The notes under the pieces are model-generated. The model ran no database searches, was not told the origin of the DNA, and saw only the letters and a program-made list of their open reading frames with translations. Shown here in pieces: positions 15,935-44,653 of a stretch of 64,000 nt of DNA. A program made the translations under genes and the position numbers. Source of the DNA: Spirochaetales bacterium (GTDB taxonomy: Bacteria; Spirochaetota; Spirochaetia; SZUA-6; DRHE01); the NCBI GenBank assembly GCA_030615505.1, contig JAUWZD010000009.1:1-64000 (forward strand), written 5' to 3'. Each line of letters begins with the position of its first letter. Position 1 is the stretch's first letter.

Positions 15935-15962
15935 TTTAATATTATTTCAAAGGAGGACTAAA

Positions 15963-17156: not shown

Positions 17157-17161
17157 GGTGC

Positions 17162-18046: not shown

Positions 18047-18073
18047 AACGGAAGAATCGATTCAGGGGTGTGA

Positions 18074-18919
18074 ATGTTCTACCTTAAGGTACTCGAGATA
18101 ACGAGTCTCTATACAATCCTGGTACTGGGCGTCTATTTGATGACCGGCCTGACCGGACTTTTCTCCCTGGGTCAGGGGGGATTTGTCTCCATAGGCGCCT
18201 ATACAGCAGCTATCGCTTTTATGAAGCTTAACCTTCCCTTTCCCGTGGCTTTGATGATGGCCGTTGTTATGGGAGCAGTTTTAGGCTTTCTTATAGGAAT
18301 CCCCACCCTGCGTCTGCGCCGGGATTACTTTCTGCTCGTTACATTCTGTCTCGGAGAGATGGTGAGAGCGGCCCTGCTCTACCTGGCCCAGTTGACCGGA
18401 GGCGCCCTGGGCATGGCGGGTATGCCTAGAAAGGTAGGACTTCCGTTAATTCTGATCTCCATTGTTTTCATCACCTTCATTCTCTACAGCCTGAAGCGCT
18501 CTCGATTCGGGAGAGACTGTATCGCTGTGCGGGATGATGAACTGGCGGCCTCTATGATGGGGATCAATGTGTTCGCTCATAAGATGAAGGTGTTTATTAT
18601 CAGTTCCGCCATTACTGCCTACGGCGGTGCGCTTTATGCCTTTAACATCCTGTTTATTGAGCCCAATCTGTTCAACTGGCTGGAATCCGGGAGGCTGATT
18701 ATTATCACATTTGTGGGAGGCCTGAACAGCATCGCCGGAGTGATTATTACTTCTGCCATCTATTACTCCTTCGGAGAGTTCTTCCGTTTTATAGATGTCT
18801 GGAGGGATGTCCTTCTTGCTCTTGTAGTGATTCTGGTTGTTATCTTTCGTCCCGGAGGGCTCTTCCAGGGCCTAGAGCTGCTTCCTCAAAAACTGCTGTC
18901 AAGAACTGAGCGGAAATAG
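18074..18919 (+). CDS. ABC importer permease (LivM type)
   Basis: 281 residues, about 8-9 membrane helices. LFSLGQGGFVSIGAYTAA near residue 30 and RFGRDCIAVRDDELAASMMGIN near residue 145 are typical of LivM, including the loop contacting the ATPases. Pairs with the LivH-type subunit. 27-base gap from the previous gene; 2-base gap to the GTG start of the first ATPase. Confidence 0.92.
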   Translation: MFYLKVLEITSLYTILVLGVYLMTGLTGLFSLGQGGFVSIGAYTAAIAFMKLNLPFPVALMMAVVMGAVLGFLIGIPTLRLRRDYFLLVTFCLGEMVRAALLYLAQLTGGALGMAGMPRKVGLPLILISIVFITFILYSLKRSRFGRDCIAVRDDELAASMMGINVFAHKMKVFIISSAITAYGGALYAFNILFIEPNLFNWLESGRLIIITFVGGLNSIAGVIITSAIYYSFGEFFRFIDVWRDVLLALVVILVVIFRPGGLFQGLELLPQKLLSRTERK

Positions 18920-18921
18920 CT

Positions 18922-19686
18922 GTGGATGTTCTAAGGATAGAAGGAGTCAGCAAGAATTTTGGCGGCGTGACGGCCCTGGTTGATTTTTTCATGGTACAGC
19001 ATGAAAATGAAATCACAGGAATTATCGGGCCAAACGGGGCGGGAAAAACCACGGTCTTCAACCTGATAAACGGTGTATATCCACTTGACAACGGCAGGAT
19101 CTTTTTTATTAATCAGGATATAACTGAAAGTCCTGCCCACAAAAGGGCCGAAATGGGAATCTCCCGTACATTTCAGAATATCCGGCTATTCAAGAACCTT
19201 AATGTTCTGGACAATATGAAGGTTGCCTGCGGCTGGAAGGTTCGATACTCCCTTTGGGAGGAGATGATACGCCTGCCCCGACCACAAAGGGAAGAGAAGG
19301 AGATCGATGAGAAGGCCAGGTACTTTCTGGAATATCTCAATCTTACTCAATATGCGAATCAAAGACCGGATAATCTGCCCTATGGCATCCAGCGCAGACT
19401 GGAGCTGGCCCGTACCTTGATGGCAGAACCAAAACTATTACTCCTAGATGAACCGGCTGCTGGTCTTAATCCCAAAGAAGTGGTTTCCCTCATGGAAATG
19501 ATCAAAAAGCTCCAGCAGGATTATAATCTCACCATTATCATCGTCGAGCACCATATGGAGTTGATCATGAAAATATGCTCCCTGATCCATGTGCTTGATT
19601 TCGGCAAGAAGATAGCCGTAGGCAAGCCGGAAGAGATAAAAAGGAATGAGTCGGTATTACAGGCCTATTTAGGGGATGGGGCGTAG
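18922..19686 (+). CDS. ABC importer ATPase (LivG type)
   Basis: 254 residues from a GTG start. Walker [10 protein letters not shown] (about residues 34-42), Walker B LLLLDEPAAGLNP, H-loop VEHHMELIM. The signature motif is YGIQRRLELAR instead of LSGGQ-like, as commonly seen in LivG. Cytoplasmic ATPase energising import. 2 bases after LivM-type gene. Confidence 0.93.
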   Translation: MDVLRIEGVSKNFGGVTALVDFFMVQHENEITGIIGPNGAGKTTVFNLINGVYPLDNGRIFFINQDITESPAHKRAEMGISRTFQNIRLFKNLNVLDNMKVACGWKVRYSLWEEMIRLPRPQREEKEIDEKARYFLEYLNLTQYANQRPDNLPYGIQRRLELARTLMAEPKLLLLDEPAAGLNPKEVVSLMEMIKKLQQDYNLTIIIVEHHMELIMKICSLIHVLDFGKKIAVGKPEEIKRNESVLQAYLGDGA

Positions 19687-19692
19687 GTAGAT

Positions 19693-20400
19693 ATGATTGA
19701 AGTTAAAGGCTTAAGTGTACACTATGGGGGAATCGTGGCCCTGGATAATATATCCCTGTCAATTCCTGATGGGAAGATCGTCAGCATAGTGGGCGCAAAT
19801 GGCGCAGGCAAATCAACCACCATAAACGCCATCAGCGGCATGGTAAAGATACATTCCGGCACCATCACTGAGAATGGTGAGAGTTTGCTCATTCCGCCTC
19901 AGGATATTGTAAAGAGGGGCATAGTCCAGGTGCCTGAAGGAAGGAAAATTTTTCCAACTATAACTGTTCAGGAGAATCTTATTCTGGGTGCATACGTCAT
20001 TAAGGATAGGGAAAAGATCAAAAAGAATATGGAGAAGGTTTTTGATCTCTTTCCCATCCTGAAGGAACGAAAGAATCAGCCCGGGGGGACCCTGTCCGGG
20101 GGAGAACAGCAGATGCTTTCCTTAAGCAGGGCCCTGATGTCGGATCCACGCGTGCTGGTGCTCGACGAACCTTCCTTGGGGCTGGCTCCTATGTTTGTGC
20201 TGGAGATATTCAAGATGATCGAAGATTTAAACAGCATAGGGCATACCATTCTTTTAGTGGAGCAGAATGCCCAGAAGGCGCTTTCTATTGCGGATTACGC
20301 CTATGTGCTTGAGACCGGCAGGATTGTTTCTGAGGGCAGGGGCAAAGAAGTTGCGGATGATCCGATTGTTAAGAAGGCCTATTTGGGGATTGAGGAGTAA
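19693..20400 (+). CDS. ABC importer ATPase (LivF type)
   Basis: 235 residues. Walker A GANGAGKST, Q-loop in VQVPEGRKIFPTITVQENL, signature LSGGEQQMLSLSRAL, Walker B VLVLDEPSLGLAP, and VEQNAQKAL. Partner of the LivG-type ATPase. Ends 2 bases before the methyltransferase ATG, so the two are almost certainly co-transcribed. Confidence 0.93.
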   Translation: MIEVKGLSVHYGGIVALDNISLSIPDGKIVSIVGANGAGKSTTINAISGMVKIHSGTITENGESLLIPPQDIVKRGIVQVPEGRKIFPTITVQENLILGAYVIKDREKIKKNMEKVFDLFPILKERKNQPGGTLSGGEQQMLSLSRALMSDPRVLVLDEPSLGLAPMFVLEIFKMIEDLNSIGHTILLVEQNAQKALSIADYAYVLETGRIVSEGRGKEVADDPIVKKAYLGIEE

Positions 20401-20402
20401 GC

Positions 20403-21785
20403 ATGCTCAGTAAAGCCAAAATCGAGGCTATCGATCAGGCGGCCAAGGCTATGCTTGAGGATCCCGGTATAATGGTCGAGGATGATGGGATAGTTGATCT
20501 CCTGCTTAAGAACGGTGCCCGGCCAGGAGCGCGGAATAGTGTCGTGCGGATCCCTGTGGAGATGCTCGATGAATATATGGCCCTGGCTCCGGAAAAAATT
20601 ACCTTTGCAGGCAGGGCCGGTAGAGAACAGCAGGTGACACCCGATTCAGAATCCCGTTTCTGGACCGGCGCCGCCCTCTTCTACCTGGACAGGCGGGGGC
20701 TTAGATTGGTTCATCAGAAGGATCTGGCTGACTTTACCCGGGTTATAGAAAAACTTAAAAATGTGGATACCGTGGTGGGGACCAGTACGGAGGATACCCT
20801 TTCCCAATACAGGGATTTTGTGGGATTCAGAATCATAGCCCAGAACACTCACAAACATATCAGAGCCCTCTCCTTTACGCCCAGAGGAGGTGAGGCCATG
20901 GTCGAAATGGCAAAGGTCCTGGCCGGCAGCCGCAGCCTTAAAGAATATCCGCTCTTCAGCGTGGGTTTCACAGCTCATGGACCGCTGCGCTGGACAAACT
21001 TGGCCCTGGGGGTCTACAAGGCCACGGCAGGCTATGGGATTCCCTGTACAGTAAACGGCGAACCCATGGCCGGCGCCTCTGCCCCGGTGACCCTCGCCGG
21101 GAATGCAGCGGTGGGCACTGCAGAGATCCTGGGAGGGATTGTGATAAATCAGCTTCTCGAACCGGGCAGGCCCTGCCTTTTCAATCTGGGCTTTGCTCAT
21201 GTGATGGATATGCGTACAGGATTCGCTGTGACTGGAGGACCGGAAAACTCGCTCATGGCAGTAACGGGCGCGCAGCTTGCCAGACGCTACCGCCTGCCCT
21301 CTGTGTCGTGGATGTGCACAGATTCACTTTATTACGATGCCCAGAATTCACTGGAGAAGATGCTGGGCGCTTTTACCCATGCTCAGGCCAGGGTGAGTAC
21401 CGTCTGGGGTGTGGGACAGGTGGAATCGGAAAAAACCATTTCCCCGGTGCAGGCCGTCATTGATGATGAAATCGTAGGACTGGTCAGGCGCTATCTTAAA
21501 GGCTTTCCGGTGGATGAGGAGAGCTTAGCCGTGGAGGAGGTGCGCAGGGTAGGCATCACAGGATCCTTCCTCGACACGGAGCACACCTTCGCTCACTTCA
21601 GGGATTCTATTTATGAGCCAGAGCTGCTGGTACGGGAACAGAGAGCCAGCGCCGGTGAGAAAAACAGCACTTTAGCACGGTCAGAGGCCATGGTGGAGGA
21701 TATCCTTTCCGCCCCCCCGGAACCGATGCTGGATGAGCAGGCTGAAAGGGAGTTGTTGCGAATAGAAGAGAGGTATTCAGCTTAG
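20403..21785 (+). CDS. Trimethylamine-methyltransferase (MttB) family protein, non-pyrrolysine
   Basis: 460 residues of the MttB superfamily: N-terminal DQAAKAMLEDPGIMVEDDGIVDLLLKNGA, then a TIM barrel with TSTEDTLSQYRD, NGEPMAGASAPVTLAGNAA and GGPENSLMAVTGAQLARRY. No in-frame TAG occurs, so pyrrolysine is not used; members lacking it (MtgB, MtpB, MtcB) demethylate quaternary amines such as glycine betaine, proline betaine or carnitine, passing the methyl to a corrinoid protein. GAGGAGT precedes the ATG. No corrinoid protein or reductive activator is intact here. Overlaps the convergent PreA-like gene by 4 bases. Confidence 0.85.
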   Translation: MLSKAKIEAIDQAAKAMLEDPGIMVEDDGIVDLLLKNGARPGARNSVVRIPVEMLDEYMALAPEKITFAGRAGREQQVTPDSESRFWTGAALFYLDRRGLRLVHQKDLADFTRVIEKLKNVDTVVGTSTEDTLSQYRDFVGFRIIAQNTHKHIRALSFTPRGGEAMVEMAKVLAGSRSLKEYPLFSVGFTAHGPLRWTNLALGVYKATAGYGIPCTVNGEPMAGASAPVTLAGNAAVGTAEILGGIVINQLLEPGRPCLFNLGFAHVMDMRTGFAVTGGPENSLMAVTGAQLARRYRLPSVSWMCTDSLYYDAQNSLEKMLGAFTHAQARVSTVWGVGQVESEKTISPVQAVIDDEIVGLVRRYLKGFPVDEESLAVEEVRRVGITGSFLDTEHTFAHFRDSIYEPELLVREQRASAGEKNSTLARSEAMVEDILSAPPEPMLDEQAERELLRIEERYSA

Positions 21786-22999
21786 GATTTCTGCTGCAAC
21801 AGCTCTTCCATGCTTATTGCTTTTTGAGGGCAGATATCCACGCAGGTTGAACAGGCCAGACATCTTTCGGGCGCAATATTAGTTATCCCGTCTGGATGAA
21901 TAATGGCCTGACAGTGTCCGATCTTCCAGCAGAGCCCGCAGGAATTGCATTTGTCCGGATCAATAACAGCATGGCCCTTATATACTATCAGTTCCTGAGA
22001 GGTCTTTATATTCTTCAACAGCATATCTCTGAAATCGGCTACTCTGCCATACCCCATTTCCTGCATATAGCTTTTAAGATTATCGAGCAGTTTGGGAAGC
22101 CAGTCGAAGCCCCTCAGCATGGTTTCCGTACAGACCCATACGGCATCGGCGCCGACCATTATCTGCTGAACCGCGCTCTGAAGGTCATTCACTCCGCCTG
22201 AGCCGATAATGAAGGCCTCTTTGTCCAGGTGAAAGCGCATTTCATAGGTGTCCCGGAGCGCCAGGGGTTTAAGCCATGGGCCTGAGATGCATCCTAAAGT
22301 AATATTATCCTGCAGGCGGTAGATAGTGCCCATGGGGTTTCTGATATCGATGTCAGGAATCCCAAGCCTGTTGGCCGCGCTGCCTACTGCAGCGGCTCCG
22401 GCCTTTAAAGAGACCTCTGCAGCCTGGGCGATTCTTCCTCCTTCAGGAGTCAGCTTGACGATCACAGGTATATTCACCTCATCGGTAATGTGCTTGATGA
22501 CCTTGGGCAGTGCTTGAAGATCTGAGCCCAAACTGGCGCCTGTGGCTTCTTCTATCTCTTTTCCCGTAGCCTGAACATTAAAGGACATGTTTGGACAGCA
22601 CATGTTAAGTTCAACGGCATGAGCCCCGGCCTCTTCAAACTGTTTGGCCATCCGAGCCCATCCCTCCCAGTCCGGTCCGTCGTAAGTGATGTTTGGAATA
22701 AGAAGGATCTCACTGGTTACCTTTTTAGCATCATCCAGGAGTTTTAACGAGGCATCCGGAGTTAAGCGGGTTTCTGCGGTGAAGATGTGAATTTTCTCTT
22801 TTTTAAGCCAGCGGTAGCGGGGAGGAAGATTAATATAAGGAAACGGATCGATAGCCAGCTTAAAAGATACTGCGGCCCAGCTATTGTCCTCGGCTTCTTT
22901 AATCTGATCCAGTGTTTTTACAGTGGGCCCGGAACCGACGATGAATGGATTGCGAAGTTTAATATCCCCCAATTTAACCGAGAGATCGGTATTATTCAC
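21782..22999 (-). CDS. PreA-like FMN oxidoreductase with C-terminal 2[4Fe-4S] domain
   Basis: 405 residues from a GTG start. An N-terminal dihydroorotate/dihydropyrimidine-dehydrogenase barrel (LRNPFIVGSGPTVKTLDQI; ELNMCCPN; PVIVKLTPEGG; IIGSGGVNDLQSAVQQIMVGADAVWVCT) is followed by a ferredoxin tail with CNSCGLCWKIGHC and CLACSTCVDICP. Such proteins reduce a C=C or C=N bond using electrons from a partner flavoprotein (PreT in pyrimidine reduction). No PreT-like partner is nearby. The first cluster motif is slightly non-standard (C-x2-C-x2-C-x4-C). Convergent with the MttB-family gene. Confidence 0.85.
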   Translation of the reverse strand: MNNTDLSVKLGDIKLRNPFIVGSGPTVKTLDQIKEAEDNSWAAVSFKLAIDPFPYINLPPRYRWLKKEKIHIFTAETRLTPDASLKLLDDAKKVTSEILLIPNITYDGPDWEGWARMAKQFEEAGAHAVELNMCCPNMSFNVQATGKEIEEATGASLGSDLQALPKVIKHITDEVNIPVIVKLTPEGGRIAQAAEVSLKAGAAAVGSAANRLGIPDIDIRNPMGTIYRLQDNITLGCISGPWLKPLALRDTYEMRFHLDKEAFIIGSGGVNDLQSAVQQIMVGADAVWVCTETMLRGFDWLPKLLDNLKSYMQEMGYGRVADFRDMLLKNIKTSQELIVYKGHAVIDPDKCNSCGLCWKIGHCQAIIHPDGITNIAPERCLACSTCVDICPQKAISMEELLQQKS

Positions 23000-23093
23000 T
23001 TGAATCCCCCTGATTTCTATATGGATTAAAGCATAGTTTTAAGCATCCCTGGTGTCAAGAAAGGACATAATCTTATCCGGGCTAGACGACTGA

Positions 23094-23122
23094 TTTACTT
23101 TACTGGCCTGTAACTTTACAAT
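23094..23122 (+). promoter_or_regulatory. Possible promoter of the Gfo/Idh/MocA gene
   Basis: TTTACT (23094-23099) and TACAAT (23117-23122) are spaced 17 bases apart, 26 bases before the ATG at 23148; GGGAGGA lies next to the start. Confidence 0.4.
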
Positions 23123-23147
23123 AAGAGGAAGCTTTAAGGGAGGAATT

Positions 23148-24206
23148 ATGGATAAAGTAAGAATCGGTATTGTTGGTTCAAAATTTGCTGCAGATTTTCA
23201 CTGTGATTCGTACAGTAGAAATGAACATACTGAGGTCGTTGCTGTTGCAGCCATAGATAATCTTGATGCTATCGCCGGGAAGTGGAATATCCCGGATACC
23301 TACGAAGATTATCATGAGATGTTTAAAAGAAAGGATATCGAATTAATCTCGGTCTGCGTTCCCAATTTTCTGCATCACGATATAGTGATAGCAGCCTCAG
23401 ATGCAGGTAAACATGTTGTCTGTGAAAAACCTCTGGCCACTACTATCGAGCATGGCAGGGAGATGATCGAGGTGTGTGAAAAGAACAACACCAAACTGAT
23501 GTATGCTGAAGACTGGTGCTTCTCGCCTGCTTTGAGAAGAGCGGAAAAGTTGATTGAGGAAGGGGGAATTGGAAGGCTCCTCTATGTAAAAGCAAAGGAG
23601 GTACATAACGGTACTCATTCCATGTATGCCAAGGATAAGAAGATGTGCGGCGGCGGCAGCTTCATGCATCTAGGCATACATCCGGTGGGATATCTTCTCT
23701 ACCTTCTGGGCAGAGGCAACAATCCCGTTGTTGAGGTTACAGGTAAAATGACAGGTGGATTAAAAAGGAACTTTGTGCATAAGGAAAACGGAGGAGAAGA
23801 CTTCGGCATGGGCATGATGAGATTCGAAAACGGCGAGTTTGCCTTTGTGGAGGGGAATTATATTACAGTGGGCGGAATGGATGATAAAGTAGAGATCTAC
23901 GGAACAGAGGGAGTGATTAAAGTTGATCTTACCTTTGGCTCGCCGATTGACTGTTACTCCGGTCCGGGAATATCCTACTCCATTGAGAAAACGAATCACA
24001 ACCTGGGGTGGACCAAACCGGCGGTTGATGAATTCTATAATCTGGGTTATGTGCCGGAACTCGAATATTTCGTTGATTGTGTGAGAAAGGATATGAAGCC
24101 CTTCTACGGTGTAAACGGGCAGGCCGGCCTTTCAGCCCTGGAATTAATTCAGGCTTTCTATGAGTCAAATAATATTGGAAAAACAGTACGCGGCAGGTGG
24201 GGCTAA
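23148..24206 (+). CDS. Gfo/Idh/MocA-family oxidoreductase
   Basis: 352 residues. Rossmann start RIGIVGSKFAADFHCDSYSR (about residues 4-23) and the family motif CEKPLA near residue 92; the C-terminal alpha/beta domain has HLGIHPVGYLL, supplying the catalytic His. NAD(P)-dependent oxidation or reduction of a sugar, inositol or related cyclic compound. GGGAGGA precedes the ATG. Resembles the protein at 43465-44640 in the stretch AE(D/N)W(C/V)F(S/A)P and the downstream GGGS-x6-HP. Stands alone, upstream of the sulfatase region. Confidence 0.9.
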   Translation: MDKVRIGIVGSKFAADFHCDSYSRNEHTEVVAVAAIDNLDAIAGKWNIPDTYEDYHEMFKRKDIELISVCVPNFLHHDIVIAASDAGKHVVCEKPLATTIEHGREMIEVCEKNNTKLMYAEDWCFSPALRRAEKLIEEGGIGRLLYVKAKEVHNGTHSMYAKDKKMCGGGSFMHLGIHPVGYLLYLLGRGNNPVVEVTGKMTGGLKRNFVHKENGGEDFGMGMMRFENGEFAFVEGNYITVGGMDDKVEIYGTEGVIKVDLTFGSPIDCYSGPGISYSIEKTNHNLGWTKPAVDEFYNLGYVPELEYFVDCVRKDMKPFYGVNGQAGLSALELIQAFYESNNIGKTVRGRWG

Positions 24207-24320: not shown

Positions 24321-24395
24321 GAGTTCTTTGGTGCTGGTAAACGCGAGATCTCTTTGACAACCCGGCAGTATTTTATTTATAGTTCTCTAGAGTCT

Positions 24396-25850
24396 ATGGA
24401 AAAGAATATTTTGTTCATTACCACCGACCAGCAGCGGAAGGACTCGCTTCCCTGCTATGGGCTGGATTTCATGCAGACCCCAGCTCTGGATCGCTTGGCG
24501 CAGGGTGGTGTCGTGTTCGATAACTGCAGCTCCGTATCGCCGGTCTGTCAACCGGCCAGGGCCTCTTTTATGATCGGACAGTATCCCCATGTAACCGGTG
24601 TACCGGACAATTTTCGCTGGCTCCGTCCAGATTCGCCTACATTGCCACGACTGTTTTCCCAGGCTGGATGGAAAACTACGGCCATTGGTAAGATGCATTT
24701 TCATCCCTGGGACAACCCTGAAGGGTTTCAGGAGCGAATTATCGCCGAAGACAAAAGGCACATTTTTAGGCCTGACCATTGGACTTTGTTCCTGGAGAAG
24801 CAGGGATACAGGAGGAATCATCCCGCTATGGTTCCAGGGTATGGAGAGAGTCTCGGTGCCATCGTCAGTCCGCTGCCCGAGAGGCTGCACATCGATTCTT
24901 TTATCGGTGACCAGGCGGTGGAGTGGATCGAGGGATTTGCTGCCCAGGATGAGAAGAAACCTTTCTTTACCTGGGTTTCATTTAACAGCCCCCACGATCC
25001 GTACGATCCCCCGGAAACTCTGGCGGATTTGTACCGGGATGTCCCAATCCCTGAGCCTGTGGGCTCTCTGGAAGAACTATCCGAGAAGCCGGAGTACCAG
25101 CAGAAAATAATCCCCTTTTTTAAGCAAAATCTCCTCTACTTGATAGACTATTCCCGGATGAACGCCCTCATCATCCGTAAAATCCGGGAGCACTACCTGG
25201 CTACAATTACTCTGATCGACAGGCAGATCGAGAAGATACTTCAGGCCTTGGAGTGGACCGGGCTGCTCGAATCGACGTTCATCGTCTTCTCCTCGGACCA
25301 TGGGGATCACTTGGGCGACCACGGGCTTCCCTTCAAATCCACTTATTATGAAAGCGCCCTGATGGTGCCGCTGATTGTCATGGGACCTGGTATTCCATCC
25401 GGAAGACGGAACCGTACCTCGGTGAACTGGCTGGATCTTCATGCGACCTTTCTTTCTCTAGCAGGAATCCCGGTTCCGGACCACGTCCAGGGCGAGGACC
25501 TCAGCGAGCTGTTAAAGTCTCCGGATCAGCACTGGGAGAGGGACGCTTTCAGTGAGCTTCTAGGCAGCGTGATGGTCAGGACCTCTGACATGAAGCTCGT
25601 TCTCTGTGACGATGGAACCGGTGAGTTATACGATCTGAAAGAGGCACCACTGGAGGTTCACAATTACTTTCACGACTTGGCCTACAGGGGAGTTAGAGAG
25701 GAGTTGACTGAAAAGATACTGAAACATCTGCTGGCCCACAGTCGGGTCCGTTCCTTCGGAGGTGGTCGGCATCCAACGGACATCCAGCGGGAGCGCTGTT
25801 TTGCTGAAATCAAGGCCCGGCTGGAGGCGGAAGGCTATCCCGGGTTGTAA
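24396..25850 (+). CDS. Type I sulfatase (formylglycine, Cys-type)
   Basis: About 484 residues from ATG 24396, preferred over an earlier in-frame start because MEKNILFITTDQQRKD is the usual sulfatase N-terminus. The maturation motif C51-Q-P-A-R (VCQPARASF) predicts conversion of Cys51 to formylglycine; in anaerobes this needs an anSME radical-SAM enzyme, not seen here. Metal ligands: D11/Q12 and the FSSDHGDHLGDHG block. No signal peptide, so probably cytoplasmic. Hydrolyses a sulfate (or phosphonate) ester. Lies in line with the PHP protein and enolase-family enzyme. Ribosome site weak. Confidence 0.9.
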   Translation: MEKNILFITTDQQRKDSLPCYGLDFMQTPALDRLAQGGVVFDNCSSVSPVCQPARASFMIGQYPHVTGVPDNFRWLRPDSPTLPRLFSQAGWKTTAIGKMHFHPWDNPEGFQERIIAEDKRHIFRPDHWTLFLEKQGYRRNHPAMVPGYGESLGAIVSPLPERLHIDSFIGDQAVEWIEGFAAQDEKKPFFTWVSFNSPHDPYDPPETLADLYRDVPIPEPVGSLEELSEKPEYQQKIIPFFKQNLLYLIDYSRMNALIIRKIREHYLATITLIDRQIEKILQALEWTGLLESTFIVFSSDHGDHLGDHGLPFKSTYYESALMVPLIVMGPGIPSGRRNRTSVNWLDLHATFLSLAGIPVPDHVQGEDLSELLKSPDQHWERDAFSELLGSVMVRTSDMKLVLCDDGTGELYDLKEAPLEVHNYFHDLAYRGVREELTEKILKHLLAHSRVRSFGGGRHPTDIQRERCFAEIKARLEAEGYPGL

Positions 25851-25931
25851 CCCTTTCCCGGGGATGGCCAAACTCATTACGTCAAACTGAGAGCTTTCTG
25901 CGCTTTTGTCAGGTCACGAGGGGGTATACCT

Positions 25932-27431
25932 GTGAAAATTTCCGAAAAAGAGCTCAAACTATTTTGGGGGGATCTCCACAACCATAATGCCGTAGGCTAT
26001 GCTAAAGGATCTTTGGAGCGCTCTATCGATATAGCCCAGGAGCACCTGGATTTCTTTGCTTTTACGGGACAAGCTTCCTGGCACGACATCCCGCTGATGC
26101 CGGGAGACCGCCATATGCTCTGGGTGAACGGGTTTAAAGCCCATGTGGAACACTGGCCCAAGACTAGGAGGTTGATTCGGGAAGCCAACAGTAATAGTTT
26201 TGTGGCATTTCTGGGTTATGAATGGCACTCCAGTGCCTTTGGCGATTACTGCCTTATCTTTCCTGAAGATCAACCGGACCTTTTCCTTCCTGACCATGTG
26301 ATAAAGCTGCTCGACTTCGCTTCCGAGAAGGGAGCGCTGTCCATTCCACACCATGTGGGCTATAAAACGAATTGGCGGGGAGCGAACTGGGATTATTTCA
26401 GACCCGAAGTGAGTCCAGTGGTAGAGATATTCTCCGAGCATGGCTGTACCGTTTCTGACCGCTCTCCTTATCCGATGATCCTGCACAGCAACGGCGGCCG
26501 GGCCACTGCCAACACGATTTACTATCAGCTGGAGCGAGGACTCCGTTTCGGTTTCGTGGCTTCTACGGACGACCATTTCGGATATCCCGGCGCCTATGGT
26601 GAGGGTCTGGTGGGGGTCTGGGCCGAGGAGTTGAGCGCAGAGGCCCTCTTTAAGGCCATCCGTCAACGGCACACCATCGCTGTAACGGGGGACCGTATCT
26701 CTTTGGGGTTCACCCTGAATGGACAGCCCATGGGCTCTGAGCTGCCCTTCGATACCCAGCGCAGTATTGGGGTGGAAGTGGAAGGGCAGGATTCGGTGGA
26801 GATGATCGAGCTTCTACGGAATGGGCGAATCATCCAGCGTTTTTTCCCGGAGGACCTGGTTACTGAGCCGCTCAATCTCCCCGGCAGGGCAAAGTGTCGT
26901 TTTCAGTACGGGTGGGGACCCTGGTCTGCCCTAGAACTGGAGCGGATTTGCTCCTGGGAGATGACCCTCCGATTAGAAAACGGACGCTTCCTCAAAACCG
27001 AGCGCTGCTTTCAATCCGGCCCTTTCAGAGAGGATCTGCGCGATCGGCTCAGGCAGGTTTCTGAGAATGAGGTGCATCTCGAGTCTTTCACTTCGCGCAA
27101 ACAGGCCTATTTGGAAGATCCCACCAAATCGATCGTCTGCGATCTGGAATCAGATTCAAGATCTAAACTCATCGTGGAGCTAAAGAAACCGTCTGAGCTT
27201 ACCGTGGAAGTGCCTCTTCAGAAATTACTCAAGGAAAATGAAATCACCTTTACCGGAGCGTTTACAACGGAGAGCTTCGTTGTTCACCGGTTGGTCGCAC
27301 CGGAAGAGTTTTCGGCCCAGATCCATTGGGAGGATAGTCGAACTGAGACCGACGGCAGCGACCAGTACCATGTTCGAGTACGTCAGCACAATCAGCAGTT
27401 GGCTTGGTCCAGCCCGATCTGGATAGGCTAG
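25932..27431 (+). CDS. PHP-like/DUF3604-type metal-dependent hydrolase
   Basis: 499 residues from a GTG with GAGGGGG upstream. The N-terminal domain has metal-ligand motifs of the PHP/DUF3604 group: GDLHNHNAVG (about residues 15-24), LSIPHHVGYKTNWRG, VEIFSEHG and VASTDDHFGYPG. The C-terminal 200 residues are beta-rich with no motif I recognise. PHP-type enzymes hydrolyse phospho- or other esters with a di- or trinuclear metal centre. Located between the sulfatase and the enolase-family gene, 22 bases before the latter. Substrate unknown. Confidence 0.75.
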   Translation: MKISEKELKLFWGDLHNHNAVGYAKGSLERSIDIAQEHLDFFAFTGQASWHDIPLMPGDRHMLWVNGFKAHVEHWPKTRRLIREANSNSFVAFLGYEWHSSAFGDYCLIFPEDQPDLFLPDHVIKLLDFASEKGALSIPHHVGYKTNWRGANWDYFRPEVSPVVEIFSEHGCTVSDRSPYPMILHSNGGRATANTIYYQLERGLRFGFVASTDDHFGYPGAYGEGLVGVWAEELSAEALFKAIRQRHTIAVTGDRISLGFTLNGQPMGSELPFDTQRSIGVEVEGQDSVEMIELLRNGRIIQRFFPEDLVTEPLNLPGRAKCRFQYGWGPWSALELERICSWEMTLRLENGRFLKTERCFQSGPFREDLRDRLRQVSENEVHLESFTSRKQAYLEDPTKSIVCDLESDSRSKLIVELKKPSELTVEVPLQKLLKENEITFTGAFTTESFVVHRLVAPEEFSAQIHWEDSRTETDGSDQYHVRVRQHNQQLAWSSPIWIG

Positions 27432-27453
27432 GCTCATCAATTAGGGGGGATGG

Positions 27454-28737
27454 GTGATCCGTTTCGATCGCTACCGTTTCACCGTGGAGCGGGAGCCTTT
27501 AATCAGGCCTTTCCACTTTAAAGGCGGATACTTTACTGAGAAGTGGATCAACGTCGTCACGCTCTACTCTTCCAGTGGAATCCGGGCCACCGGCATCGGC
27601 GGCAGCGCCGTATTGTGGTCCGACCCGGAGGTGTTTTTCTCTTTCTCAGAAACTGGAGGAAATATCCTGATGGCCTCACTGGCTGAGCGGGCGGCACAGC
27701 TGGCTCAAGGGTTTTCTTTTCAGAATCCTGTGGAGGCCATTCAGTACATCTTGCCCGAGCTGCACCGCTTCGGCTGTCAGATCACCGGCAGACGAGACCT
27801 AAAGCGGACCTTTACTCTAAACTCCCTGGTTGCCATTGATCTGGCCCTCTGGAAGCTTTACGCCCTTGAGCAGGGAAGCCTAGGTTTTAGTGAACTGATA
27901 CCTGAAGAGTATCGATTCGCCTTTCAACATCGCCAGTCCTGCCTGGCCCATGCCCCGCTGATTACCTACAACGTCCCCGTTTCTGAAGTAATCCAGCTGG
28001 TTGACCGCAGACATTTCTTCCTCAAGATCAAGATAGGCCAGCAGGGAAGTCAGGAAGAGATGCTGGAAAAGGACAAAACCAGGTTGTCCGAGCTGCACGT
28101 AGCTCTAAAGCACAAGCGAACATCTCACACAGCCGATGGGAAGCTGCTCTACTATCTTGATGCCAACGGGCGGTATCAAGACAAAGAGGGGCTTATAGAG
28201 TTGTTGAATCATGCCGAGGCGATCGGCATGCTGGAGCAAATCGCCCTGTTGGAAGAGCCCTTCCCCTACGAAAAGAAGATCAGCGTCACTGACCTTCCGG
28301 TACGGGTTGCTGCCGATGAATCCCTGCACGCTGTAAAGGACCTTCAGGAGCGTATAAATCTGGGGTACAGGGCCTTCGCTTTGAAGCCGGCCGGAAGAAC
28401 CTTGAGCATGTCCATCACCATGGCCGCCGCTGCAGCTAAGCATGATATCCCCTGTTTCGTAGCCGATTCTGCCTGTGTGCCGCTTCTCGTTGAATGGAAC
28501 AAGATCACCGCGGCCCATCTTTCCTCTTTTCCGGAACTTTCCATGGGGGTCCTTGAGTCCAACGGGGCCCAGAATTACCGCAACTGGCAGGGGTTATTGA
28601 AGGAGCATTCACGCTTCGGAGCCCCGTGGATTGAGCCGCGGGAAGGGCTCTTTGTGCTCGATCAGGATTTCTACGATGTGTCGGGAGGCATCTTCGATGC
28701 TGCAGGACATTACGAGAAATCGAGCGACGAATGTTGA
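27454..28737 (+). CDS. Enolase-superfamily (mandelate racemase-like) enzyme
   Basis: 427 residues from a GTG start (TTAGGGGGGATG upstream). Barrel landmarks are in order: FLKIKIGQ (KxK acid-base lysines), YYLDANGRY (metal Asp), LLEEPFPYE (metal Glu), RVAADESLH (third metal acid), and FALKPAGRT (Lys on the opposite face, as in muconate cycloisomerase/dipeptide epimerase subgroups). Catalytic set looks complete. It abstracts a proton alpha to a carboxylate for racemisation, dehydration or cycloisomerisation. Directly followed by a TTT transporter for carboxylates, which fits an acid substrate. Confidence 0.85.
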   Translation: MIRFDRYRFTVEREPLIRPFHFKGGYFTEKWINVVTLYSSSGIRATGIGGSAVLWSDPEVFFSFSETGGNILMASLAERAAQLAQGFSFQNPVEAIQYILPELHRFGCQITGRRDLKRTFTLNSLVAIDLALWKLYALEQGSLGFSELIPEEYRFAFQHRQSCLAHAPLITYNVPVSEVIQLVDRRHFFLKIKIGQQGSQEEMLEKDKTRLSELHVALKHKRTSHTADGKLLYYLDANGRYQDKEGLIELLNHAEAIGMLEQIALLEEPFPYEKKISVTDLPVRVAADESLHAVKDLQERINLGYRAFALKPAGRTLSMSITMAAAAAKHDIPCFVADSACVPLLVEWNKITAAHLSSFPELSMGVLESNGAQNYRNWQGLLKEHSRFGAPWIEPREGLFVLDQDFYDVSGGIFDAAGHYEKSSDEC

Positions 28738-28754
28738 GATTAGCAGTCGATTCG

Positions 28755-28783
28755 TTGACAACAGAGCATGCATCCCTTATAAT
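28755..28783 (+). promoter_or_regulatory. Consensus sigma-70 promoter of the first TTT operon
   Basis: TTGACA (28755-28760), 17 bases, TATAAT (28778-28783): both boxes match consensus exactly. The AAAGGAGG ribosome site and ATG 28817 follow. Strong constitutive expression, or tight repression by an unseen regulator, is expected. Confidence 0.8.
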
Positions 28784-28816
28784 TTTTTTATCACTAAGCT
28801 GTAAAGGAGGTCCTTT

Positions 28817-29794
28817 ATGAAAAAGCTTTTCTTAGTCTTTATTATTCTGCTGGCGTCTGCAGGATTAATCCTGGCTGAAGGGACCCAGGAAGGTGCTGCG
28901 GCCGGGGAGTACCCCACCAAGCCGATTCAGATCATCGTTCCCTGGGGAGCTGGTGGAAGAACCGACATAAACGCCCGGATGTTTGCCAGTGTAGCGCCGA
29001 AGTACCTGGGACAGCCCGTGGTAGTCGTGAACAAGGCCGGCGGCGGCAGCGTGATCGGCGGCGACTATGTTGCTAAAGCCAAACCTGACGGATACACCCT
29101 TCTGGCCATTACACCGGGGACCAATGTCTTTCCGGTGATCTTCAAGAAAGCGCCCTACGGAACTTACGATTTCGATCCCATAGGCCAGATCGGGTCCAGT
29201 ACTATGGCCATCGCCTCCAAGCCTGACAGACCATGGAAGAATGTGCAGGAACTCATCGCCTATACCAAGGCCAATCCGGGGAAGGTAACCTATGCCTGTG
29301 TTGCTCTGAAAGCCCCTCAACTGGGGTTCCTGCGCTGGGCCGACAAGGCGGGGTTGAAGTTCAAGCATGTACCTGTGGGCAACGATGCTGAAGCTGTGGA
29401 GGCCGCTTTGGGCGGGCATGTTGATATTGCCATGACCTCCAGCGTGGCTACGATTATCTCTCACGTGAACGCCAACAAGCTCAACGCCCTTATAGTTTTC
29501 TCCGAGAAACGTGATGCAAATCTGTCCGATACGCCAACCGCTGTTGAAACCGGCTATGCGGTGGTGGCCAGTCCCTTCACCGGCCTTGCCGGACCGAAGG
29601 GGATGCCTAAAGAGGTTTTAAATAAACTGCGTACTGTTTTCAGGCAGGTCATCGAGGATCCAGACTTTCTGAAAGTGATGAAGCGGATCGGTGAGAGTAT
29701 CAGCCCCAAGTTCGGAGATGAGTTCTACGCTGTCTGGAAGAACGATTTTGAAGGCTACTCTGACATCGTAAGGAAGATGGGTTTCGTTAAGTGA
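28817..29794 (+). CDS. TTT transporter substrate-binding protein (TctC/Bug family)
   Basis: 325 residues. Signal peptide MKKLFLVFIILLASAGLILA, then a Glu/Gly-rich spirochaete-style linker, then the TctC signature YPTKPIQIIVPWGAGGRTDI and VVNKAGGGSVIGGDYVAKAKPDGYTLL. Periplasmic, high-affinity binding of a carboxylated solute (the family binds citrate, tartrate, aromatic acids and nicotinate, among others). Preceded by a consensus promoter. Overlaps the TctB start by 4 bases (GTGA). Confidence 0.93.
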   Translation: MKKLFLVFIILLASAGLILAEGTQEGAAAGEYPTKPIQIIVPWGAGGRTDINARMFASVAPKYLGQPVVVVNKAGGGSVIGGDYVAKAKPDGYTLLAITPGTNVFPVIFKKAPYGTYDFDPIGQIGSSTMAIASKPDRPWKNVQELIAYTKANPGKVTYACVALKAPQLGFLRWADKAGLKFKHVPVGNDAEAVEAALGGHVDIAMTSSVATIISHVNANKLNALIVFSEKRDANLSDTPTAVETGYAVVASPFTGLAGPKGMPKEVLNKLRTVFRQVIEDPDFLKVMKRIGESISPKFGDEFYAVWKNDFEGYSDIVRKMGFVK

Positions 29795-30258
29795 GGAAAC
29801 CCCATATTCGTCGTTTGGGGGAAGGAATCACGCTGACCGTTCTGGCCGGCGTGATTCTTTTTCTTGTGCCCTCCCAGATAGATCGGATACCCGGAATGGA
29901 AACAGAGGTTTCTCCATTCTTTTTACCCACGGTACTGGCCGTAGCGATCATGGCTGTGGGCATTGCCCTCCTGGCCCAGGCCTTTCGAAAGAACATTGGC
30001 GAGGGCGAGAAAGAATTTCCCATGTCCGGGGGCCTGCGGGTGCTGGTGTCGGTACTCCTGCTTATTGCTTATACCCTGTTATTTCCGCGGCTGGGATTTC
30101 TTGTTACCAGTGGTATTTTTATGGGAATTTTCACTTATTATTTTGGCGCCCGGAGCATATTGAAAATTGGTTTGAGCATGCTGCTGGTTCCGGTATGCGT
30201 CTGGCTGTTCTTTGAAAAGCTGTTTCGCATACCCCTTCCCCACGGTCTGATCTTTTAG
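29791..30258 (+). CDS. TTT transporter small membrane subunit (TctB)
   Basis: 155 residues from a GTG that overlaps the TctC stop. Four predicted membrane helices and the TctB landmark FFLPTVLAVAIMAVGIALL near residue 40. Small, poorly conserved integral subunit that works with TctA. 8 bases before the TctA ATG. Confidence 0.85.
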   Translation: MRKPHIRRLGEGITLTVLAGVILFLVPSQIDRIPGMETEVSPFFLPTVLAVAIMAVGIALLAQAFRKNIGEGEKEFPMSGGLRVLVSVLLLIAYTLLFPRLGFLVTSGIFMGIFTYYFGARSILKIGLSMLLVPVCVWLFFEKLFRIPLPHGLIF

Positions 30259-30266
30259 GTTAATCC

Positions 30267-31775
30267 ATGTTCAGCCACTTTATTCCTGCGGTCCATCTTT
30301 TTTTTACCATACAGAATCTGCTGGTCGTGGCAATTGGGCTGTTTGTGGGGGTTACTATCGGCGCTATTCCCGGCCTCAACGTGCCTATGACGGTGGCCCT
30401 GCTGCTGCCGATTACCTTCTACATGTCTCCCGTGGCAGGCATCAGTCTGCTCATCGGAGTGTACAAGGGAGGGACTTACGGTGGTTCGATCTCGGCAATC
30501 CTGATCAATACACCCGGTGCTCCCGCGGCAGCTGCGACCTGTATGGACGGCTACCCCATGGCCAAACAGGGTAAAGCCGGTAAAGCCTTGAGGGCTTCCA
30601 TATACGGCTCGGTGATCGGTGAGTTTATCGCTGACCTGGTGTTGATCACTATTGCCAGTCAAATCGCGATGGTCGCGCTGAAGTTTGGCCCTACAGAAAA
30701 GTTATCTCTGGTTATTTTTGCCCTGGTTACCATTGGCGTGGTTTCTTCCGAACACAAGCTGAAGGGGATTGCCGCCGGGCTGCTGGGGATCTTTTTCCGT
30801 ACGGTGGGTTCAGATCCCATTTCCGGGTCCTCTCGTTTTACCTTAGGTGTTTTCAGCCTGATCGGGGGGATCCCCTTTCTTCCCCATCTGATCGGATTGT
30901 TTGCCGTATCCGAGTTTTTTGTACAGATTGAGAGCAAAGTTGTGGATGCCCAGCGGGATGTTGTGGCTCCGGTTTCTAAAAACCGAGAGGATAACTACGT
31001 CTCCTGGAAGGAGTTCAAGCAGAACATTGTCACCATTATCCGATCTACCCTGATCGGCATTGGTATCGGGGCGCTGCCGGGAAGCGGATCGGCGATCTCA
31101 GCCTTTGTTTCCTACGGCGCGGCCAAGAACGCATCCAAGCATCCCGAAAAGTTCGGGAAAGGTTCTCTGGAAGGGGTGTTTGCTGCCGAAACGGGAAACA
31201 ATGCTGTTTGCGGCGGTGCCTTGATTCCGCTGCTCACCCTGGGTATTCCCGGAGATGCTATCACCGCCATTATGTTGGGGGTCTTTCTGGTGCACGGGTT
31301 GATTCCCGGCCCCGATCTATTCGTAAAGTCGGGAGACATCATTTACGCCGTATTCATCGGACTGATAGTAGCCAACATCCTGCACTTCTTTATTGCCTCG
31401 CTGGGTTTAAGGCTCTTCATCAAATTGCTGTCCATCAGCCGAGCGATCCTGTTCCCCATCGTTATCATCATCTGCGTTGCTGGAGCCTTTACAGCGAACA
31501 GCAGTATCTTCGATGTGTACGTGATGATCTTTTTCGGGGTGCTGGGCTATGTGATGAAGAAGTTCAACTTTCCTGTGGCACCCTTGATGATGGGCTATAT
31601 CCTCGGCTCCCTGCTCGAGACCTCTTTAGTGCAAACTCTCGTTTTGAGCAACGGTTCTGTGCTGCCGATATTTACCCGGCCGATTTCCCTGCTGTTTGTC
31701 GTTCTGACTGTATTCTTTGTTGTCTGGTCTTTGATCATACAGAAACGGGGAAGAGCGAGAAAAGCAAAGCTTTAA
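30267..31775 (+). CDS. TTT transporter large membrane subunit (TctA)
   Basis: 502 residues, about 11-12 membrane helices. Family motifs: GATIGAIPGL-like VGVTIGAIPGLNVPM (about residues 27-41), GGTYGGSISAILINTPGAPAAAATCMDGYPMA near residue 70, and the repeat-like GIGIGALPGSGSAISAFVSYGAAK near residue 272. Inner-membrane translocator driven by an ion gradient. Completes TctCBA. Followed by the degraded 31.8-33.9 kb region. Confidence 0.93.
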   Translation: MFSHFIPAVHLFFTIQNLLVVAIGLFVGVTIGAIPGLNVPMTVALLLPITFYMSPVAGISLLIGVYKGGTYGGSISAILINTPGAPAAAATCMDGYPMAKQGKAGKALRASIYGSVIGEFIADLVLITIASQIAMVALKFGPTEKLSLVIFALVTIGVVSSEHKLKGIAAGLLGIFFRTVGSDPISGSSRFTLGVFSLIGGIPFLPHLIGLFAVSEFFVQIESKVVDAQRDVVAPVSKNREDNYVSWKEFKQNIVTIIRSTLIGIGIGALPGSGSAISAFVSYGAAKNASKHPEKFGKGSLEGVFAAETGNNAVCGGALIPLLTLGIPGDAITAIMLGVFLVHGLIPGPDLFVKSGDIIYAVFIGLIVANILHFFIASLGLRLFIKLLSISRAILFPIVIIICVAGAFTANSSIFDVYVMIFFGVLGYVMKKFNFPVAPLMMGYILGSLLETSLVQTLVLSNGSVLPIFTRPISLLFVVLTVFFVVWSLIIQKRGRARKAKL

Positions 31776-33323: not shown

Positions 33324-33455
33324 GCTTCTTAGTCCGGCTTCCGAGCCGGAGATGCACTAATGCCGGTGAGCGCATGCTTCTCAGTCCAGTGTCCTCATCC
33401 AGCGAGCGCAGTGAGTCGGACGAGGCGTAGCCGAGTCGGAGATGCGCGAAAGCCG
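33321..33455. repeat. Imperfect repeat with hairpin next to the IS91 relic
   Basis: CATGCTTCT(T/C)AGTCC occurs at about 33321 and 33373, and CCGAG(C/T)CGGAGATGC follows each. The first copy contains a perfect hairpin CCGGCT-TCCG-AGCCGG (33334-33349). It borders the IS91 fragment and the ABC-permease relic and may be the element's end. Confidence 0.4.
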
Positions 33456-33461
33456 GCCGCC

Positions 33462-33824
33462 TTCCAACACGAGGCAATGAAAAAGAATATTCCTAAAGAA
33501 CTCTACAGCGCTTCGAAGATCGATGGAGCAGGATCCTTAACCCAATTTTCGCGTATAACCTTACCAATGCTCTCTCCGACGACCTTTTTCGTTATCATAG
33601 TAACATTAATAAACTGTTTTTTGGTTTTTGAGCAAACCTATACCATTACAAAAGGCGGGCCAGCAAATTCCACATTAACGTTTGCACTTCACATCTATAA
33701 CAACGCTTTCCTATATTTTAAGATGGGCTATGCTTCCGCACTTTCATTCATCTTTTTTCTCTTACTACTTTCCATAAATCTTTTTCAAACAACTTTTCAG
33801 AAGAAATGGGTATTTTATCAATGA
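33462..33824 (+). pseudogene. C-terminal part of an ABC sugar permease (MalF/UgpA type)
   Basis: IPKELYSASKIDGAGSLTQF matches the cytoplasmic EAA loop of carbohydrate ABC permeases (E-A-A-x-x-D-G-A), followed by ITLPMLSPTTFFVIIVTLIN and two more membrane helices to the natural C-terminus. Everything before the EAA loop is missing; the junction with repeat/IS91 debris is at about 33460. An apparent ATG at 33478 is not a real start. The partner permease begins 13 bases later and is also broken. Confidence 0.7.
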
Positions 33825-36073: not shown

Positions 36074-37462
36074 ATGATCAAAACTATGAGTTTAAAACCC
36101 AGTGATCTGCTGGTTAAAATCAAGCGGCTCTTTGAATACTCCGGCAAAAAGATACTGGAAATTCAGGAATCATGTCCTCCTGGATCCGCCGCCCCCGTCT
36201 ACACGGTACGGGGGAAATACACCTCCAGGGGCTGGACCGAGTGGACCCAGGGCTTTCAATACGGATCGGCCATTCTGCAGTATGAGGCCTCCGGGGATGA
36301 GACTTTTTTGGAGATTGGACGAAGCAGCACGGTTACCCATATGGCAAATCATCTCAGCCATATGGGCGTACATGATCATGGCTTTAACAATATCAGTACC
36401 TATGGCAATCTGCTGCGGCTGATGAGGGAGGGAACGATCCCCGCCGACGAATGGGAAGCCAGATTCTATGAGCTGGCCCTTAAAGTTTCAGGCGCGGTGC
36501 AGGCAGCCCGCTGGACCGGGCTTCCGGGCAATCTGGGTTATATATACTCCTTCAACGGCCCACACTCCCTGTTTGTGGATACTATAAGGACCCTTCGAGT
36601 GCTGGCTGTGGCCCACCAGTTAGGACATACTCTCATGGGTGAGCAGGATCGGCGCATTTCACTGCTTGAGAGACTGCTCCAGCATGCCGAAACCACCGCC
36701 CGCTATAATATTTACTTCGGTGAGGGCCGGGACGCCTATGATATCCGGGGTAGAACCGTTCATGAGGTTGTATTTAATATTACCAATGGCTCCTACCGCT
36801 GCCCCAGCACCCAGCAAGGATTTTCTCCCTTTTCAACCTGGACCCGGGGCCTGGCCTGGGCATTATGCGGCTTTGCTGAACAGATAGAGTTCATAGACAA
36901 CCTGTCTGAGGATGCCTTTGCCGGTCTGAAGGCCGGGAATCTCGAAGGTAAAGAGGCTCTGGTTGCGCGGATGGCCGAGACCTGTGAGGCGGTAGGGGAT
37001 TTCTATATTGAGCACTCCCCCACAGACGGGATTCCCTACTGGGATACAGGAGCGCCGGGATTGGCTAACCTGGGTGATTATCTGGAAAAAGATGCAGATC
37101 CCTTTAATGATTTTGAACCGGTTGACAGCTCCGCCTCAGCTATTGCTGCCCAGGGACTGCTCAGGCTGGGCCACTTCCTGGGACAAGTGGGAAAAGAGGA
37201 GCACGGAGAGCGCTATTTTCAATCAGGGCTCAGGATAGCGGATACTCTCTTTGAGGAACCCTATCTGGCCACGGCTCCGAATCATCAGGGTTTGATCCTG
37301 CACTCAGTCTATCACCGTCCCAAGGGCTGGGATTATATACCGGAGGGGAGGAAGATCCCTGCTGGTGAAGCCACCATGTGGGGCGATTATCATGCCCGGG
37401 AGATGGCCCTGTACCTCAAGCGCCTGGCTGAGGATAAACCCTACTATACATTTTGGAGGTAA
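36074..37462 (+). CDS. GH88/GH105-like unsaturated uronyl hydrolase
   Basis: 462 residues, alpha/alpha-barrel type. Motifs resembling GH88: GFSPFSTWTRGLAWALCGFA (about residues 250-269) and FEPVDSSASAIAAQGLLRLG (about residues 350-369), plus HMGVHDHGF, where a His-Asp-His group lies. GH88/GH105 enzymes hydrate the enol of 4,5-unsaturated uronosyl residues and release the sugar. No signal peptide, so intracellular. Family placement (GH88 versus GH105 versus an unclassified relative) is uncertain. First gene of the 36-40.2 kb run. Confidence 0.7.
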   Translation: MIKTMSLKPSDLLVKIKRLFEYSGKKILEIQESCPPGSAAPVYTVRGKYTSRGWTEWTQGFQYGSAILQYEASGDETFLEIGRSSTVTHMANHLSHMGVHDHGFNNISTYGNLLRLMREGTIPADEWEARFYELALKVSGAVQAARWTGLPGNLGYIYSFNGPHSLFVDTIRTLRVLAVAHQLGHTLMGEQDRRISLLERLLQHAETTARYNIYFGEGRDAYDIRGRTVHEVVFNITNGSYRCPSTQQGFSPFSTWTRGLAWALCGFAEQIEFIDNLSEDAFAGLKAGNLEGKEALVARMAETCEAVGDFYIEHSPTDGIPYWDTGAPGLANLGDYLEKDADPFNDFEPVDSSASAIAAQGLLRLGHFLGQVGKEEHGERYFQSGLRIADTLFEEPYLATAPNHQGLILHSVYHRPKGWDYIPEGRKIPAGEATMWGDYHAREMALYLKRLAEDKPYYTFWR

Positions 37463-37466
37463 AAAT

Positions 37467-38300
37467 ATGGGCGCCGGGCCAATATGGGACTATTCAAAGC
37501 TATGCATCCATACCATAACTACCAAGCCCTGGTCCCTGGATGAAGCGATTTCACACTATACCCGGGCCGGAGTTTCAGGGATTACGGTCTGGCGAAATGC
37601 CTTAGAAGGCATGGATCCGCAAAGCGCAGGACGGCGCATTCGGGAGGCTGGCCTTGAGATCGTTTCCCTCTGCCGGGGCGGATTCTTTCCGGCTGCCGAT
37701 TCTGAAGGAAGGCAAAAAGCGATTGAAGAGAACTTAAGGATTATTGATGAGGCGGCCTCCCTTGGGGCTCCCCTCATTGTTTTAGTCTGTGGAGCGGTAC
37801 CGGGTCAGCCTCTAAATGAGTCACGGAAAAAGATCCGGGATGGAATTGCAGCCATTCAGCCCTATGCTGAAGAGAGGGATATCAGGCTGGCTATAGAACC
37901 TTTGCATCCCATGTATGCGGATGATCGTTCTGCCATCAATACCCTGAAACAGGCCAATGATATGGCCGAGGATCTCAATACAGAAACGGTCGGAGTTGCG
38001 GTGGATGTATACCATCTCTGGTGGGATCAGGAACTGGAGGCAGAGATCAGGCGCAGCGGCAGAGCGGGTAATCTCTTTGCCTTCCATATCTGTGACTGGA
38101 GAACCCCTACAGAGGATCTGCTTAATGACCGGGGACTGATGGGGGAGGGCTGCATCCCCATTCGCAATATCCGCGGCTGGATGGAAGAGGGCGGTTTTGA
38201 TGGTTTTAATGAAGTAGAGATTTTTTCAAACCGGCGATGGGCCCAGGACCAGGAAAAATACTTAGAAGAAATCTGCCGGGCCTATCTTCAGGCTTCATGA
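37467..38300 (+). CDS. Xylose-isomerase-like TIM-barrel epimerase/isomerase
   Basis: About 277 residues from ATG 37467, chosen because TGGAGGT is 6 bases upstream; an earlier start would run through the GH gene. AP-endonuclease-2 fold landmarks: GVSGITVWRNAL, IRLAIEPLHP (metal Glu), VGVAVDVYHLWWD (metal Asp/His), FAFHICDW and GFNEVEIFS (last metal Glu). Isomerises or epimerises a keto-sugar or sugar acid with a divalent metal. Sits 4 bases after the hydrolase stop. Confidence 0.85.
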   Translation: MGAGPIWDYSKLCIHTITTKPWSLDEAISHYTRAGVSGITVWRNALEGMDPQSAGRRIREAGLEIVSLCRGGFFPAADSEGRQKAIEENLRIIDEAASLGAPLIVLVCGAVPGQPLNESRKKIRDGIAAIQPYAEERDIRLAIEPLHPMYADDRSAINTLKQANDMAEDLNTETVGVAVDVYHLWWDQELEAEIRRSGRAGNLFAFHICDWRTPTEDLLNDRGLMGEGCIPIRNIRGWMEEGGFDGFNEVEIFSNRRWAQDQEKYLEEICRAYLQAS

Positions 38301-38325
38301 ATACACATTATAGAAAGGATCTATC

Positions 38326-39474: not shown

Positions 39475-39485
39475 AGGAGGACAGC

Positions 39486-40187: not shown

Positions 40188-40211
40188 GGGGGGCGATATA
40201 AATTTTTAAAT

Positions 40212-40240
40212 TTGACATTGCATTTATTGAGGTATATACT
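40212..40240 (+). promoter_or_regulatory. Promoter of the second TTT operon
   Basis: TTGACA (40212-40217), 17 bases, TATACT (40235-40240), followed by AAAGGAGG and ATG 40273. Gives the binding-protein gene its own strong promoter within the larger cluster. Confidence 0.7.
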
Positions 40241-40272
40241 TTTTTTGTATTAGAAACTAAAGGAGGATGAAC

Positions 40273-41289: not shown

Positions 41290-41311
41290 CGATTTCGTTT
41301 TATAAACCAAT

Positions 41312-41350
41312 GCAGGGCATTTTTTTATTTGAAAATGTCCTGCTCTTTTT
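41312..41350 (+). terminator. Hairpin terminator/attenuator between tctC and tctB
   Basis: GCAGGGCATTTT and AAAATGTCCTGC (one G-T pair) form a 12-base stem with a short AT loop at 41312-41343, followed by TCTTTTT. It lies 22 bases after the tctC-like stop. Partial termination here would give more binding protein than membrane subunits. Confidence 0.7.
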
Positions 41351-41389
41351 AATCTATAATTTATTAGGGCAGATCAGGGAGTATTATCG

Positions 41390-41908: not shown

Positions 41909-41936
41909 CTAATCAGGGTTATGTGGAGGATGGAAC

Positions 41937-43460: not shown

Positions 43461-43464
43461 AGCC

Positions 43465-44640: not shown

Positions 44641-44653
44641 CTGATTCTCATTT

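Follow-up and report, generated by a model that had tools for sequence, protein, structure and literature searches.

We propose that six adjacent genes in the stretch of spirochaete DNA analysed here (64,000 nucleotides, hereafter the window) form one conserved catabolic module of spirochaetes, which imports and processes a sulfated organic anion; we place the probability of this reading at about 0.6. The window belongs to a draft genome (G000, 171 contigs, 93% complete). As the original prediction described, three intact enzyme genes run in the same direction ahead of the genes TctCBA of a tripartite tricarboxylate transporter (TTT); indeed, all six reading frames are open and lie on the forward strand. 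The unit and its candidate promoters are composed as follows:

24354..24383, + strand: promoter-like site TTGACA-N18-TATAGT (11/12 matches), 12 bases before the sulfatase ATG
24396..25850, + strand: type I sulfatase (Cys type, CQPAR), Pfam PF00884 at 8e-47
25932..27431, + strand: PHP-fold metallohydrolase, CehA/McbA-like, NF038032 at 6e-19
27454..28737, + strand: enolase-superfamily enzyme of a divergent kind, its MLE-type catalytic residues unchanged across 42 homologues
28755..28783, + strand: consensus promoter TTGACA-N17-TATAAT, in the gap separating the enolase gene from TctC
28817..29794, + strand: TctC periplasmic binding protein, Pfam TctC at 2e-54
29791..30258, + strand: TctB small membrane subunit, Pfam TctB at 2e-18
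30267..31775, + strand: TctA large membrane subunit, Pfam TctA at 1e-152

The order sulfatase-PHP-enolase-TctC-TctB-TctA was found in G298 and G299, and the same six genes occur in identical order in G261, which belongs to another family of the same class as family f1, that of the window. In G300 the order is kept from PHP to TctA, the contig starting inside the PHP gene, and in G297 (locus L060) the sulfatase-PHP-enolase genes are divergent to TctCBA, with a ROK regulator between them. BLAST left the TctA frame of G298 and the TctB frame of G300 unrecognised, either because overlapping frames were chosen or because the frame is broken. The sulfatase orthologues share 67-71% identity in f1 and 57% in G261. 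Such recurrence of the gene order in other genomes indicates that the adjacency is not due to chance. Enolase and PHP are present in the same six of the seven f1 genomes, the seventh being devoid of enolase, PHP and TctC. Across the phylum, 4 of 296 genomes carry the enolase, 6 the PHP protein and 3 both (hypergeometric probability of ~2e-5, calculated by hand and uncorrected for kinship). The idea of a single pathway, as originally predicted, is therefore supported: sulfatase, PHP, enolase and TctCBA do co-occur in other genomes, and the enolase does not group with a known unrelated function. Literature searches returned no paper on the combination of sulfatase, PHP, enolase and TTT, and a search on DUF3604 gave one paper only, which was irrelevant.

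The flanks vary between genera while the six genes keep together, and we therefore consider these six as the unit. Upstream, positions 15915-24206 of the window encode a branched-chain-type ABC importer (Liv), an MttB-like methyltransferase whose gene has no in-frame TAG, a PreA-like flavoprotein (- strand) and a Gfo gene (at 23148). This Liv-MttB-PreA-Gfo block adjoins the operon in the window and in G261 (L074); its genes were rejected as operon members, being non-adjacent in G297, G298 and G299. A short ABC permease frame (33360-33824, 154 aa), standing alone in the space that separates the operon from the following cluster, resembles a gene remnant.

The perfect TTGACA-N17-TATAAT promoter of the original prediction is present, once in the window against 0.02 expected by chance. 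Since it is located between the enolase gene and TctC, it would drive TctCBA only, and serves the importer, not the enzymes or the whole run. We consider it real because its TTGACA (-35 box) recurs, 62-68 bases upstream of the TctC ATG, in every one of the five f1-family genomes where TctC was detected, including G297, in which TctCBA lies on the other strand. In G261, TTGACA is absent before TctC, the gap there being only ~40 bases. The site at 24354-24383, being so close to the sulfatase ATG, would leave the message with next to no leader, and the region immediately upstream of the sulfatase showed no equivalent in G297, G298 and G299. With a promoter of its own and an inverted position in G297, the importer need not be co-transcribed with the enzymes or serve them only, and may serve more than these.

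The sulfatase motif C51-Q-P-A-R55 matches C/S-x-P-x-R and is of the formylglycine type, and the genome encodes an anaerobic sulfatase maturase (TIGR03942, 388.9 bits, above the curated cut-off). No signal peptide precedes the protein, which is probably cytosolic. Its best PDB relatives are annotated as choline-sulfatase (3e-56). A choline-sulfate pathway label was rejected, the TIGR03417 equivalog scoring 241.8 bits for a cut-off of 433.45, and the substrate specificity cannot be read from the sequence.

The second enzyme has a PHP fold: its AF2 model (pLDDT 92) finds PHP phosphoesterases as fold matches. It scores 68.6 bits with the CehA/McbA model NF038032, below the curated cut-off of 80, and is therefore named CehA/McbA-like only; the match to DUF3604 is weak (4e-07). 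Having no signal peptide, it too is probably cytosolic. The metal-ligand set (HxH, TxH, E, HH, E, DxH) is present in 20 of the 22 aligned sequences, L079 being without part of the motif and the window protein having Q at the TxH position. This residue, codon 47 (26070-26072, CAA), is a presumed metal ligand and is His in 20/21 aligned relatives, so that the window enzyme may be impaired; Gln47 could reflect a genuine substitution, a drift in the direction of loss or an error in base calling.

Of 25 PHP relatives encoded elsewhere than in this operon, 9 have a sulfatase no more than 2.5 kb away, against 2 of 90 control frames of similar size drawn from 19 stretches of six genomes, a small and non-independent set for which the p value of 1e-5 is indicative only. 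G299 has a second, paralogous locus (L107, 2609-10557) with the order TctC-TctB-TctA-unknown-sulfatase-PHP, and G072 a PHP-permease-sulfatase arrangement. Together with the 9/25 count, these loci make transporter, sulfatase and PHP a recurrent combination in which the transporters differ. Beyond the spirochaetes, PHP lies next to the enolase in G319 (Gfo-PHP-enolase-TIM barrel, where the PHP protein has a likely lipoprotein signal, read by eye and missed by the automatic call) and four genes from it in G1078. Another PHP relative (L080, 1-6734) is accompanied by Gfo, a TauE-type exporter, a PAPS-reductase-domain protein and a sulfatase, possibly a sulfur-handling locus.

In the third enzyme, K191, K193, D236, E267, D288 and K311 are invariant in an alignment of 42 homologues. 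The KxK motif lies at the end of strand 2 and K311 at that of strand 6, as aligned to 2zad and 3u9i, and the metal ligands D236, E267 and D288 stand at the ends of strands 3, 4 and 5 of the AF2 model (pLDDT 94.6), an arrangement that corresponds to the MLE subgroup. A profile search aligned the catalytic residues with those of dipeptide epimerases and other MLE-subgroup members, and the fold matches are mainly to that subgroup (1wue, 1wuf and 3ik4; TM 0.60-0.63, 15-18% identity). Among them, the 3,6-anhydrogalactonate cycloisomerase 5xd9 was considered as a candidate and rejected, being no closer than the dipeptide epimerases. The Pfam domain MR_MLE_C reaches 9e-07 and 29.2 bits in the window protein, just below the cut-off of 29.4, and matches 39 of the 42 homologues at E<=0.01 (best 3e-15); a Pfam search gave no match for MR_MLE_N in the window protein. 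The enzyme is a divergent branch with the MLE-type catalytic set and has no close characterised relative. Characterised relatives of the two-lysine MLE type are epimerases, racemases, o-succinylbenzoate synthases and cycloisomerases, and such a site permits racemisation or epimerisation, syn-elimination or cycloisomerisation. Dehydration, suggested originally as the last step, is thus one option of three, and a two-lysine active site gives it no support over epimerisation.

A scan of genome contigs with the enolase gave 61 loci in many phyla (41-65% identity), the branch spanning Bacteroidota, Planctomycetota, Verrucomicrobiota, KSB1, Neomarinimicrobiota, Bacillota and Spirochaetota. Its common neighbourhood in Bacteroidota and others consists of Gfo/Idh and a xylose-isomerase-like TIM barrel. 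Most of the Bacteroidota homologues have no PHP neighbour and a distant sulfatase or none next door, so neither is needed for the enolase step. A general sulfatase-enolase link was also rejected, the nearby sulfatases outside spirochaetes being scattered and only 22-31% identical. In most other phyla a twin-arginine signal is predicted on the enolase homologues and also on the Gfo/Idh and xylose-isomerase-like proteins beside them; where the enolase is exported, so are 59 of its 64 partners, and where it is not, 7 of 14 partners likewise are not (p 6e-4, based on a simple rule for calling signals and on rows that share descent). The signal is missing in spirochaetes, G1078 and Oscillospiraceae, the automatic Tat call on the G261 enolase being judged wrong by eye. 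In the tree, the enolases of the spirochaete operons and G1078 form one clade without Tat signals (support 100/99), and all its members with examined flanks (f1 genomes, G261, L002 and G1078) have PHP nearby, which supports PHP and this enolase clade acting together. A different, canonical enolase-superfamily protein with MR_MLE_N and MR_MLE_C (L104, 2807-4036) bears a Tat-like signal as well, and export is therefore not restricted to the branch studied here; the papers searched held no description of Tat export for the superfamily.

TctA, TctB and TctC all score above their Pfam cut-offs, as expected of a complete tripartite tricarboxylate transporter, and TctC matches structures of Bug proteins (3e-42). 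The Arg of its GGRTD loop is kept in all six orthologues, the paralogue having GGSND, and is possibly an extra anion contact. Taken together with the signal-less sulfatase, the importer fits the uptake of a sulfated or esterified acid, as first predicted. A second TTT cluster of the window (36074-45745) contains a glycosidase resembling unsaturated glucuronyl hydrolase (1e-11), a xylose-isomerase-like protein, two Gfo/Idh genes, a creatininase-family gene, TctC and TctA, with a DHDPS-like gene on the other strand; with such a gene content, TTT systems could plausibly take up uronate in the organism.

We therefore propose the following pathway, well supported as a pathway, with its chemistry supported only in class. 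The three enzymes of the window are without signal peptides, so the substrate has to reach the cytosol before they can act, and the adjacent TTT importer offers the obvious way in. Judged by family, TctC would bind a small organic anion on the outer side of the membrane, for import by TctAB. The formylglycine sulfatase would then remove the sulfate ester in the cytosol, a family-level assignment with which the CxPxR motif and the maturase agree. The PHP enzyme may hydrolyse a second bond of ester, lactone or phosphate type. Finally, with Mg2+ held by D236, E267 and D288, the K193/K311 pair of the enolase would abstract the proton alpha to the carboxylate, giving an epimerised or beta-eliminated (dehydrated) acid. 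This order (import, desulfation, PHP hydrolysis, enolase step) and the substrate are what we infer. The recurrent partners of the enolase elsewhere, Gfo/Idh and the xylose-isomerase-like TIM barrel, point to sugar-acid chemistry, and by this analogy the substrate class is most likely a sulfated sugar acid, e.g. a uronate or aldonate.

The same partners could be read otherwise, namely as the core of a pathway for a uronate-containing glycoside, in which Gfo/Idh and TIM-barrel enzymes would cleave by a 3-keto route, the enolase would act at C5 (epimerisation or 4,5-elimination), and sulfatase and PHP would trim decorations only. In favour of this reading, Gfo, TIM barrel and enolase are often neighbours in Bacteroidota and others, one PHP relative has a 3-keto-disaccharide hydrolase-domain protein nearby, and the second TTT cluster of the window has its unsaturated-glucuronyl-hydrolase-like protein. 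Also in its favour, operons with Gfo/Idh and 'sugar phosphate isomerase' genes carry out 3-keto-glycoside beta-elimination (PMC10628242). The pairing of Gfo with a TIM-barrel eliminase in one operon was, however, not found here: no TIM-barrel gene belongs to the six-gene unit, and neither Gfo nor TIM-barrel genes directly adjoin it in G298 and G299. In addition, to our knowledge no enolase-superfamily member acts at C5 of a uronide. We regard this reading as unlikely. A bolder proposal, that the enolase founds a new subgroup acting on (sulfated) uronic acids or uronides as C5 epimerase or 4,5-eliminase, Tat-exported and periplasmic mostly in Bacteroidota and cytosolic in spirochaetes, is speculative and quite improbable; if true, uronyl epimerases and polysaccharide lyases would have a counterpart with the enolase fold.

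The adjoining Liv-MttB-PreA-Gfo block, found again beside the operon in G261, suggests that the module might instead join it in handling a sulfated or esterified methylated amine acid, the enolase being a betaine epimerase and MttB a demethylase. Within the enolase superfamily, a characterised betaine 2-epimerase does have a two-lysine active site. We consider this reading improbable, as the block is not beside the operon in G297, G298 and G299 and the enolase homologues elsewhere sit with sugar-type oxidoreductases. Lastly, that the enzyme operon serves one substrate and the TTT importer another, as independent neighbours, could be argued from the separate TctC promoter and the inverted arrangement in G297, but is very improbable given an adjacency kept in two families and both orientations and the paralogous TTT-sulfatase-PHP locus of G299.

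The proposed catabolic module for a sulfated organic anion is thus a conserved, testable and so far unnamed one, built around a CehA/McbA-like PHP branch and an enolase branch that lacks close relatives of characterised function. Once the substrate of one such module is named, the whole enolase branch would gain a function.

Compared with known systems, the window sulfatase shares the CxPxR motif, the sulfatase family and the best PDB matches with the choline-sulfatase/arylsulfatase-like type I sulfatases, but lies far under the equivalog cut-offs of choline-sulfatase (241.8/433) and arylsulfatase (269/481). The PHP protein has the fold, the metal-ligand set apart from position 47 and the NCBIfam CehA_McbA match in common with CehA/McbA carbamate hydrolases and PHP phosphoesterases; it is unlike CehA/McbA in its sub-cut-off score, its extra C-terminal beta-rich part and its sulfatase-linked neighbourhood. 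The 3-keto-glycoside operons contain Gfo and TIM-barrel genes, the partners of the enolase family in other phyla, whereas the accessible part of their description mentions no enolase, PHP or TTT importer (PMC10628242) and the spirochaete operon has no TIM-barrel gene. Finally, the enolase shares the barrel, the KxK motif, the D/E/D metal ligands and the strand-6 K with the MLE subgroup (dipeptide epimerases, o-succinylbenzoate synthase/N-succinylamino acid racemase and muconate cycloisomerase), from which it departs by its 15-18% identity, a TM of ~0.6, the missing MR_MLE_N, a longer chain (427 aa) and, in most of its homologues, a predicted Tat export.
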